A DNA stretch of 64,000 nucleotides from Pagrus major (Eukaryota > Chordata > Actinopteri > Spariformes > Sparidae). The notes under the pieces are model-generated. The model worked only from the letters and a program-made list of their open reading frames with translations. It had not been told where the DNA came from and made no database searches. Each line of letters opens with the position of its first letter. The first letter of the stretch is position 1. The translations under genes were made by a program, and so were the position numbers. Location: contig NC_133234.1 of NCBI RefSeq assembly GCF_040436345.1, positions 13,904,446 to 13,968,445 of the forward strand, given 5' to 3'. Positions 15,925 to 59,880 of the stretch are shown in pieces.

Positions 15925-18900
15925 CTATATAGCTAAGATGTGCTGCAGGAACACTGTCACTGAGATGACAATGACCGTAAGCTCAGTTGTAGCGGTTGAT
16001 GCTGTGGAGGATGGAGTGGTAACATTTCCTGGAGCCGATGTGGTTGCATTTCCAGAGCCTGTGCTGCGACATGCAAAGCTGCTGTCTGGGTCAGTGCCAG
16101 TGGAGTCGAATGTCACAAAGTTAACATTGGCTCCCGCCACTTGACCCAGGATCCAATCCTGGAACTCAGACACTCGGGCATAGACCTCAGGGAAACCAGC
16201 CAGGGCACAAGGTACTCCAAAACTGGTAATGCCAGCCTGGACCCACCTTGTGCCTTGTTTGCATTGCAGAGGTCCACCTGAGTCACCCTGCAAGAGGAGA
16301 GACAAAACACCATAAGTGAATGGATACTGCTGGTAATGTACAGGATGAGACTTGAGTAGACTTATCTAACCTCACCTGGTACATTCTCACTGACAAAAAT
16401 ATTTTAATAGCACAAATATGAAAGTTATGTATTACGGTGGGGAAATTGGTAAGGAGGAAAGAGGATGGAACAAAGTATCTTATGAGAAGACAGGATGTCA
16501 AATGCAACAATAAATGTTTATTATATTTACCTGACATGCTCCTTTGTTCTCTTGCCCCGCACAAATCATTTGGTCAGTGATGTTTGCCTCTGGTGCTCGG
16601 ATGTAATTGCAACTGCACTGCTTGTTTCCAATGACAGGAATCTGAACCTCCTGCAGTGGAGTCGAGGCGGGCAAGGACTCTGTGAAAGAGAAAGTGGGCT
16701 ATGAAATCAGCGGACGCACTGAGGTAGAGATAGTGGCTCTGTATGCTGTACTAGTCACAGTGGAGCTAAATGCTAACGTCAGTATGCTAACATGCACCAA
16801 ATGGCGACTTCTATCTTAAGTAAGCATTCCAACATTTGTTAAAGCTCCTGTAAGTGACATATATTAATTAAAATAAATGTTGAAAAGCTCTATATTCCAA
16901 CAGTAATCACTCTATTAGAGTGTTTGGTCAGTGACCCATGTCTCTCCTCCCCCTGCTCATGAAAAGTACACTTGAGGCAGATCGGAATGTCATTTTTTAT
17001 TATTTTGTCATAACCTGAGGTTTTGGGCGAATCAAAGCTTTGACTTGATAATAGCACTAGATTAAAAGCCTGCAGGATACTCACCATCCTTTCCAAGCCT
17101 GCCCCAGCCAGTAGCCCAGCAGGAAGTGGAGTTGTAGAACTGGCTGGAGTTACTCGCCAGGCAGATGGGTCTGATGAAGTTAGTGAAACTGACAGGGCTG
17201 CTGAGCCTCATTAGGGCAATATCATTGTTAAACAAGGTGTTGTTGTAGTCAGGATGGACGATGATCTGGGACAGCGTGCGGCTCACCTCATTATCATTTG
17301 GGCCACTCTGAGTCTCTCTTCCAAGGTAGAGGGTCCATGCACTAGGTGTGTTGCTGGATAAAAAGAATACAGATAGCAAACGCATACAAAATATTTCCAG
17401 GAAGATATTTTTTTTTTAGACAATTGTTATGACAAACATAACAAGATATGCAATCTCCTAAAAAGTGAGAGTGAAAGGAAAGTTTTGTTGGTACAAAGAA
17501 GCAAGGCCTGTGACAAAAGTCAGCAAAGTGACTTAATCATGGTGGAAGGTGTCAAGGCGCTGCAACGTTATTGACTTGTGAAATTAGTGCTCTGCCCTTT
17601 GCCCTTTGAGATGAGGTCAATGTCCTGAATGTCAAATACTGTAGATGTTACTTTCAGATCATTGAAATTTGAGGCGGAGGCAGACATGCTGACTACAGGT
17701 TTTCCCCCAGTTAAGACAACCCTTGTAAATTTCATTGTACACATTATGTGCCCCTTTTGTACCGTTATGTTTTCTTTAAATCAATCCATCTCGGTTTAGA
17801 AAGGATTGTTACTGTATTTTGAGTTTAAATTTCTAAGCACACAAAATGAAACCGTTTCTCTTACATTGAGATGCAGTGGGCTGCTGTCATCACCCACTGT
17901 TCACTGATGAGTGTCCCTCCACAGATGTGACTACTGAGGTGCAGGCTGACCTGCCAGGGCCATGACCCAGCCGGGGCATTGTCACCACCCACTATCCTCG
18001 TGTTCAGAGGTGCCGTTCCACAATCTGAGCATAGACAACCATGTGTAAGTACAAATAAATAAAGGTAGGTCCATTTGTAGCTCTGTTTCTTCACAGTCAT
18101 TTGTGGTTATTGTTCTTACAGAGCATCGCCACAGCATTTATGGAATATATGAAATATGACTGTGCTTACCCTGAGCCCTTGACCCTGTAGAAAAGAGAGA
18201 TAGAAAGAGTGAATCTCATCTGTATGCGTCAATGTGTGTTTCATTGTTAGACCCAGCAAACTTTGCAGTAAAGGTATTAGTAGTGTAGTATCTAGCCTCA
18301 GACACAAGGTGGCGCTAGAGTTCCATCTGCTTCCTCTAATGGACTAGAGTACTTAGTAAAAAGGCCTCAGACCTTTCCCAAGGCAACAGGATGAGAGAGG
18401 GGGAGTGACATGCAGCAAAGGGCCACAGGTCGGACTGGGCACCCCTAGAAGATATGTTTCACTATTACACATCACAGTACAGTCTGATTATTCTGCCCCA
18501 GTAGCGGATCATATCAACAAGAGTACACTTGTTCAAGTACGCTTGGGAATATTAACAACAATGAAAAAAAACACACATTTCCTGCATTTTAGATGATTAA
18601 TTTCAGTTGTATTTGACTGTAATTCAGGTGTGTTTTGTGGTTGGATTAGCTTTTGATATTTTCAATAGTAATACGTCATTGTGTCCACAATATAAAAAGA
18701 GAAGATTTCTTTTGATCCCTGACAGCTGAAAAAGAGCTAAAAGTTTCAAATGTTGAAAAGCTTAAAGTATCAGAAACAGTTGAAAATGTTGCTTAACGCA
18801 ACAACTAAATGGTAATGTTGGCCAATTATCTACTTAGGCTACTTGTTATAATGTTGGACCAGGTGTGTTGACAGAGGTCACACTGTAGACACTACCCAGT

Positions 18901-19654
18901 GTTGTGTGTAAACACCAGGAAGAAAAATACTGCAGGCCTTTTTGCAGGAGGCATGTATTTCCATACACGCCTCCTGTACAGTGTCATCATTATATTTCAA
19001 TGAACCTTTGGTGAGATATGAACATAATAACATTTAAACAAGTATAGCTGTGGTCCTGTTCTCACACTAATAAGAAAGATTTAACACCTGTTAAGTAGGC
19101 TACTGTTTCTGTCTGTTTATTTAATTTGATTTAATTTGATTTTATTCAATAGCGTAAACTCAAATTATATCAACATGTTCCTGCAAGAGGCAAGCTATCG
19201 ATAGCTTGAAACATTTACTAAGCAACCACTCTACAACACACCTCTCAATAGTTTACAGGCATTTCAATGTTGATAATTATCACTTATGTGAGATCATTAA
19301 TTGATAGATCTATACAATACAGCATTTCTGCAACAAACCCAGTCTCAATTAACCTTATATTCACATCATATTTAGAGTTGTTTTGCTTCTCTTTTGAAAA
19401 GAAAAGGAAACTTTAGACAGATATTTCAACATAATATAATCAAATACAACACCACTTCTAAATAAATCAGCAAAAATGACCATAAAGTTGGATCAAAATT
19501 TCAACACTGATTAACTAAATATACGGTTTATTGTTATTAAATGAGAGAATTATTGATTTGTAACAGATAACAAACTGCTAAGTCAGTATAAAAGCTCACC
19601 TTGCCCAGTGAGGGCTGTATACATCAGGAGCATCCATACAGTCCAGGCTGTCAT
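15925..19654 (-). CDS. Protease A: GPI-anchored S1A serine protease, prostasin/testisin-like
   Basis: Six exons on - (19600-19654, 18170-18184, 17865-18024, 17085-17353, 16531-16679, 15925-16287) join in frame to 336 aa. In order: signal peptide [18 protein letters not shown]; a micro-exon giving [22 protein letters not shown] with the activation cleavage and the light-chain Cys; His57 (TAAHC); Asp102 (NNDIALM); Cys122 (RPICLAS); [13 protein letters not shown]; Ser195 (GDSGGP); ITSFGVPC and FPEVYARV; a Ser/Thr-rich stalk; and a hydrophobic tail [14 protein letters not shown] typical of GPI attachment. Residues 189 and 226 are Gly and Glu, so trypsin-like specificity is not expected. Several NxS/T sites are present. 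It would act at the cell surface. A TATA-like box (CTTTAAATAG on -, 19749-19758) lies about 95 bases before the ATG. An AATAAA on - at 15411-15416 may end the transcript. It appears intact. The family is sure; the orthologue is not. Confidence 0.9.
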
Positions 19655-59100: not shown

Positions 59101-59880
59101 CTGCAAACAATAAGCTGATAAAACAAGGTGTGCTTCAGTGTATGAGGTATGTTTTACTATTACACTATTGCGATTTGGTGTTGTTGTTGTTTTCTTGTCA
59201 TATCCTGGATGCTGCTATTTTGACCCTGTCCTCATTTGAGGAGAGATTTTAATCTCAAAGTGACTCACTAGTTTATTAAAGCAACATTATGTAACTTTTT
59301 AACCTGAAAATAACAAAATCATTTTGATGGTACAGTGTCTTGTAATAGGGTGAATGCTGTTCTCTGCGTCCCATCACCTGTTTCTGCACTATGTAACTTC
59401 AGTGAGAGGGTAGGGTACTTGAAACAGTTACTAAGTAACCACTTGACAACACACCTCCCCATAGCTTACAGGCATTTCATTATTGATAATCACCACTATT
59501 GTAAAATCATTCGTTGATATCTCTGTACAATACAGCACTGAATACAATAACCTACTACAATAACCCCAGTCTATATGAATCTTCTATTCGCATCATATTT
59601 AGAGTTGTTTCTGTACTGTTAGGAAAAGAAAAGGAGACTTGAGACAGACACGTCAACATAATATAATCAAGTACAACTCCACCACTAAATAATTCCTCAT
59701 ACATGACCATAAAGTTGGATCAAAACTTTGCTGACACTGATAACAGAAACTAAATATAAGGTTTAAAGAGAGAATGTGTTGGTTTGTAATAGATTATAAA
59801 CTGGTAAGTCAGTATAAAAGCTCACCTTGCTCAGTGAGGGCTGTACACATCAGGAGCACCCACACAGTCCAGGCTGCCAT
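56166..59880 (-). pseudogene. Protease G: full-length protease copy with nonsense and frameshift
   Basis: All six exons of the D-type unit are present on - (59826-59880, 58717-58731, 58381-58549, 57152-57420, 56791-56939, 56166-56540) with splice sites kept. In the His exon the Trp codon of SWPWQVSLH is TAG (58479-58481), ending the protein soon after the activation site. In the last exon a one-base loss near 56288-56296, compared with E, shifts the frame after GNATM, so the stalk and hydrophobic tail become a proline-rich run ([14 protein letters not shown]). Another frame still reads [16 protein letters not shown]. Position 225 is Thr (GFTEVYARV). A TATA box survives (59982-59987). The sequence is otherwise very close to D, so loss of function looks recent. 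Confidence 0.9.

Follow-up and report, generated by a model that had tools for sequence, protein, structure and literature searches.

Organization of the protease array

What would an S1A protease cleave when its primary specificity (S1) pocket has no acid at position 189 and a Glu at position 226? The question is raised by a tandem gene array of Pagrus major, analyzed here in a window of 64,000 nucleotides (C20:13904446-13968445; assembly 786 Mb, 25 contigs); “the window” denotes this whole stretch. Exon positions were determined on the minus strand, and the exons were then joined into coding sequences (Table 1). Exons 2-5 are present in six minus-strand copies (A, B, C, D, E and G; tblastn, whole window), and copy F is exon 3 alone, without either pocket exon. 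Exon 1, which encodes 18 signal-like residues, was found for A, B, D, E and G by blastn with copy A exon 1; the same query gave no exon 1 match for copy C in the window. Exon junctions are GT-AG. The acceptor AG of copy B exon 2 lies 3 bases upstream of the modelled start, and the true acceptor adds one Ala in frame. The mature product starts with IVGG after an Arg, and the propeptide contains a Cys. By conceptual translation, copies A, B, C, D and E have a hydrophobic C-terminal tail that would suit membrane anchoring, probably through GPI.

Membership in the S1A (chymotrypsin) family is not in doubt from the sequences, and the PF00089 trypsin-domain profile matches all five copies scanned (A-E; best E = 6.3e-71; residues 1-229 in copy A). 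NCBIfam profiles gave no match above threshold, and below it only a match to an unrelated esterase family. The prostasin label comes from the exon build, presumably of the prostasin/testisin type; when PDB chains are ranked by sequence, prostasin falls below enteropeptidase, plasma kallikrein and tryptase.

Table 1. Protease gene copies, pocket codons and fragments in the window (positions are those of the window).
Feature	Location	Strand	Details
Copy A	15925..19654	-	exons 1-5: 19600-19654, 17865-18024, 17085-17353, 16531-16679, 15925-16287
Copy A pocket codons	Gly189 16540-16542, Glu226 16186-16188	-	intact, His57
Copy B	22279..25805	-	exons 1-5: 25751-25805, 24501-24669 (as modelled), 23474-23742, 22868-23016, 22279-22623
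Copy B pocket codons	Gly189 22877-22879, Glu226 22522-22524	-	Ser192; intact, His57
Copy C	27727..31747	-	exons 2-5: 31579-31747, 29019-29287, 28280-28428, 27727-28035
Copy C pocket codons	Gly189 28289-28291, Glu226 27934-27936	-	Gln57, catalytic His lost
Fragment similar to the tail part of exon 5	34755..34826	-	tblastn
Copy D	35814..40673	-	exons 1-5: 40619-40673, 37957-38125, 36791-37059, 36418-36566, 35814-36167
Copy D pocket codons	Gly189 36427-36429, Glu226 36066-36068	-	intact, His57
Copy E	42737..46985	-	exons 1-5: 46931-46985, 45121-45289, 44151-44419, 43452-43600, 42737-43135
Copy E pocket codons	Gly189 43461-43463, Glu226 43034-43036	-	Gln57, Asn214, Phe192
Copy F	54569..54826	-	lone exon 3, tblastn
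Copy G	56166..59880	-	exons 1-5: 59826-59880, 58381-58549, 57152-57420, 56791-56939, 56166-56540
Copy G pocket codons	Gly189 56800-56802, Glu226 56439-56441	-	exon 2 stop codon, tail out of frame

Residues and loops of the S1 pocket

Gly189, Ala190 and Glu226 are encoded by every one of the six copies that include the pocket exons (A-E and G). Exon 4 ends in (K/R)GAC(Q/S/F) in each of them, codons 189-191 are invariably GGA GCA TGT, and Glu226 is always GAG, lying in a (P/T)EVYARV segment in which residue 225 is Pro in five copies and Thr in copy G. Gly216 is likewise present in 6/6 copies. A sequence-only reading of this DNA had placed the same residues at these positions, and alignment of A-E to bovine chymotrypsin and trypsin bears this out. 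Asp189 combined with Gly226, which defines the trypsin-like specificity group, is absent from all six; the array instead has the combination that defines a relocated-acid S1 pocket (Asp or Glu at position 226 and neither at 189). Across the aligned copies A-E, Cys191, Thr213 and Phe215 are shared, and Ser214 is replaced by Asn in copy E alone. Among the copies, residue 192 varies between Q, S and F, and residue 99 between F and L.

The sequence-only reading did not mention the length of loop 1, which falls two residues short of trypsin's: in A-E, 8 residues separate Cys182 from Cys191, as in bovine chymotrypsin, versus 10 in trypsin and enteropeptidase. Loop 2 (Cys220-Tyr228) of the same copies has the trypsin and enteropeptidase length, and the pocket is thus a mosaic. 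Since the Cys182-Cys191 spacing equals that of chymotrypsin, no gap has to be chosen and the numbering at 189 is secure; on this ground we rejected the idea that Gly189 is an alignment artefact. The reference sequences (trypsin, chymotrypsin, crab collagenase 1azz and cathepsin G 1au8) were matched letter for letter to PDB chains. The tblastn-anchored alignment puts a gap at the Lys-Asp pair and so gives a false Gly189 in Asp189 paralogs and enteropeptidase, where counting back from Cys191 yields Asp; its 189/190 entries for non-window sequences were not used. Ala190 was rejected as a telling change, Asp189/Ala190 occurring in 8 of 60 last-exon matches of the locus survey described below.

Ancestry of the pocket

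A neighboring plus-strand array (L009-L011, within C20:13857500-13887200) contains 17 near-identical last exons in units of ~1.7 kb, with its last exon ~18 kb left of the window. All 17 encode Gly226, and 88 bases upstream of each is an exon ending KDSCQ (Asp189). We surveyed 51 loci of the same genome, a selection comprising genome-search returns, chosen regions of that list and the C20 flanks; ten loci (L003, L007, L008, L013, L014, L015, L029, L036, L037 and L040) contained no filtered match. Among the 60 filtered last-exon matches, 17 of which are near-identical tandem copies, 53 encode Gly at residue 226 and three encode Ser; Gln, Met, Arg and Asn occur there once each, and none has Glu or Asp. 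Residue 189 was unread in 15 of the 60 rows; its reading in L016:6010 comes from a neighboring exon, and that in L045 is an artefact. No further copies of the window type were found in 131 kb (C20:13857500-13988400); the 46.9-kb left flank (L009-L013) gave trypsin-type or degenerate exons only, and no matching exon came from the 20 kb to the right (L014, L015).

A FastTree phylogeny built from 23 sequences separates the six window copies from the remaining 17 by a long branch (0.38) with support of 1.000. The fish paralogs from C20 and C23 form one group (support 0.970), and the split uniting them with the window copies has support of 0.786 in a tree from which human prostasin and testisin are absent. 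Crab collagenase and cathepsin G are placed elsewhere, which makes the acid at 226 look convergent. The simplest reading of Gly189/Glu226 is that it derives from an Asp189/Gly226 ancestor, the state of the neighboring 17-copy array, and the proposal that the acid moved from 189 to 226 is right as a description of a derived state. Along the stem of the array, Asp189 would have been lost, loop 1 shortened to chymotrypsin length and Glu226 gained.

Several other loci of the survey have unusual residues. A pair of paralogs on C23 (L018:1139-7174 and L020:9006-3826), within the C20/C23 group, has Gln57, Ser226 and GDGGGP (Ser195Gly); both are probable pseudoproteases, and their Gln57 matches that of window copies C and E. 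The script reading of L044:3190 (C11) is Gly189/Ala190 with Asn226 (DKGACY...FPNVY), a pocket without Asp, and L033:1451 (C17), in a small protease cluster, combines Asp189 with Arg226 (GRYRVYTKV). Two degenerate last exons, L012:549 (GDQGGP) and L016:6010 (GDSGGP, with an abnormal loop 2), may belong to second, inactive protease domains.

Divergence and integrity of the copies

Mature-domain dS among the six copies is 0.046-0.145, with omega of 0.30-1.28 (A-D, 0.30; B-D, 0.44; A-B, 0.65; A-E, 1.28), and copies A-E have the same residue in 188 of 236 mature-domain columns. Given the low dS, agreement among the copies mostly reflects recent common descent; a pocket common to all of them is weak evidence by itself when so many columns are invariant anyway, and its conservation, expected among recent copies, says little. 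The six copies are recent duplicates that record one event, not six. Variable columns among A-E are concentrated in the cleft-rim loops, whose limits we took from standard chymotrypsin numbering (27/64 vs. 21/172 elsewhere; odds ratio 5.2, p = 1.3e-6), and the same holds for A, B and D (16/64 vs. 15/172; odds ratio 3.5, p = 0.0016). Surface loops are more variable in most proteins, so this enrichment is no proof of selection; the pattern suggests that the copies, diverging later in the loops that rim the cleft, may have diversified their extended specificity.

The His57, Asp102 and Ser195 triad is complete in A, B and D. Codon 57 is CAA (Gln) in copies C and E, versus CAC (His), and copy G keeps all triad codons yet is interrupted upstream by a stop codon in exon 2 and has its tail out of frame. 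From their sequences, A, B and D are the only copies that look like working enzymes; copy E, with Gln57 and Asn214, is a probable pseudoenzyme, and copy G is a pseudogene. The relocated acid had been attributed to the whole protease array, which is true of the residues in 6/6 copies; as a statement about enzymes it fails for C and E, without His57, and for G, with its nonsense codon. Copies C and E also have a similar 37-loop sequence in exon 2 (31579-31747 and 45121-45289), which suggests that a single loss of His57, inherited or spread by duplication or conversion, lies behind their shared Gln57.

Predicted substrate specificity

The sequence-only reading held that the array should not be called trypsin-like. 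The absence of Asp189 agrees with this, but the statement is too strong: a moved acid alone need not abolish trypsin-like cleavage, and published enzymes with an acid at 226 are variously basic-preferring, dual or chymotryptic. The best reading, by analogy with cathepsin G or crab collagenase, is that the intact copies would have a dual P1 preference, for Lys and for aromatic residues or Leu. We infer for A, B and D an open S1 pocket (Gly189, Ala190, Gly216) with a carboxylate on its wall, in which Glu226 would bind P1 Lys (over Arg) and the neutral floor would bind aromatic residues or Leu. In neutrophil proteases, the acid is described as shielded by hydrophobic residues, chiefly Val190 and Val216 (PMC7914634). 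Because Ala190 and Gly216 replace these Val residues in the array, as in cathepsin G, an exposed acid and dual cleavage are expected, including some cleavage after Lys/Arg. Crab collagenase is reported to be broad, cutting after charged and hydrophobic residues (PMC7914634). That this is an S1A array of prostasin/testisin build with a derived Gly189/Glu226 pocket and a dual P1 preference in A, B and D is a conclusion that we hold with about even confidence.

The enzymes might still be trypsin-like, with Glu226 replacing Asp189 as the anchor for P1 Lys/Arg and Lys favored. Published precedents are rat trypsin D189G/G226D, which retains basic cleavage with Lys over Arg, and complement factor B, in which Asp226 serves P1 Arg (PMC7914634); relocation of the acid from 189 to 226 is called rare there among enzymes that keep a basic preference. 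This reading is unlikely, as loop 1 of the array is of chymotrypsin length and human cathepsin G, with Glu226 and a small floor, cuts its best chymase substrates only ~two-fold better than Lys substrates (PMC5898719).

We consider it rather improbable that the enzymes are purely chymotrypsin-like, with Glu226 shielded or uncharged and the neutral floor taking aromatic residues or Leu. Loop 1 length is compatible with this, and insect GGD, GSD, AGD and GAD enzymes are described as favoring chymotrypsin substrates, crab GGD-type enzymes cutting both kinds of substrate and insect GGD-type enzymes being chymotryptic (PMC11172050); however, neither Ala190 nor Gly216 has a side chain that could shield the acid, unlike the Val190/Val216 of neutrophil enzymes. 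A decaying array, in which relaxed constraint accounts for the pocket changes and every copy lacks meaningful peptidase activity, would fit the Gln57 copies, the stop codon in G, the exon 1 not found for copy C and the highest omega (1.28, A-E), but is very improbable given that the triad, the activation site and open frames are all preserved in A, B and D and that omega for A-D is 0.30, even if the A-B and B-D values are higher.

Residue 226 is described as a weaker predictor than 189, one that can be shielded, and fish triplets as hard to read (PMC4646688). Catfish II is listed there as an RR-type tryptase from unpublished work, and apparently the same enzyme was later called a specific elastase (PMC10778636), a conflict indicating that triplets have misled for fish proteases. 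Duodenases that are close relatives of one another span tryptase, dual, chymase and asp-ase specificities (PMC8162674), a spread which shows that small changes matter.

Implications

Relocation of the acid from 189 to 226 is a known route to new S1 specificity (PMC7914634). Our literature search, which included peptide strings from the array and had subscription journals mostly outside its reach, found no report of a fish prostasin-type protease with Gly189/Glu226 among the matches listed; the peptide strings matched one unrelated paper. Specificity changes of this kind are known, though our search found none reported for this lineage. By analogy, the pocket change probably broadens the range of substrates cut. 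A wider proposal, which we advance only tentatively, is that a dual S1 pocket like that of cathepsin G or brachyurin arose independently in a membrane-type vertebrate clade beside a 17-copy trypsin-type array, the tandem copies of this clade diversifying extended subsites and shedding two His57-less pseudoproteases. If true, the dual-pocket clade would be a natural experiment in specificity change: the array and its nearby trypsin-type relatives would offer before-and-after enzymes for asking which of loop 1, 189 and 226 suffice. The locus also cautions that a domain match alone is no ground for labeling genes trypsin-like or active.

Comparison with known proteases

The prostasin/testisin-type paralogs on C20 and C23 share the exon build and the R-IVGG site with the array, and the Cys-x-Cys of exon 4 (NRQCNC) recurs in the C20 array and L016/L017. 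In the three C20 paralog copies compared, 142-145 of 253-254 aligned residues are identical to copy D. Unlike the window copies, the C20/C23 paralogs have Asp189/Ser190/Gly226 and a loop 1 that is two residues longer. The enteropeptidase light chain (7wqw) is the best PDB sequence match to the array protein, sharing the S1A domain and loop 2 length (SFGxxCAL), but its pocket is trypsin-like (Asp189/Gly226).

For two of the enzymes to which the pocket had been likened, crab collagenase (Gly189/Asp226) and cathepsin G (Ala189/Glu226), the comparison stands letter by letter. Human cathepsin G (1au8; same residue as copy D at 77 of 215 aligned positions) shares a small residue at 189, Ala190, Gly216 and Glu226; unlike the array, it is a neutrophil enzyme without the Cys191-Cys220 pair. 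Crab collagenase (brachyurin, 1azz; same residue as copy D at 87 of 219 aligned positions) is a digestive enzyme of an invertebrate (PMC7914634). It differs from the array in Thr190, in having Asp rather than Glu at 226 and in a loop 1 one residue longer, and shares with it Gly189, Gly216, the KG(A/T)C and ITSFG motifs and an acid at 226 directly after Pro225.
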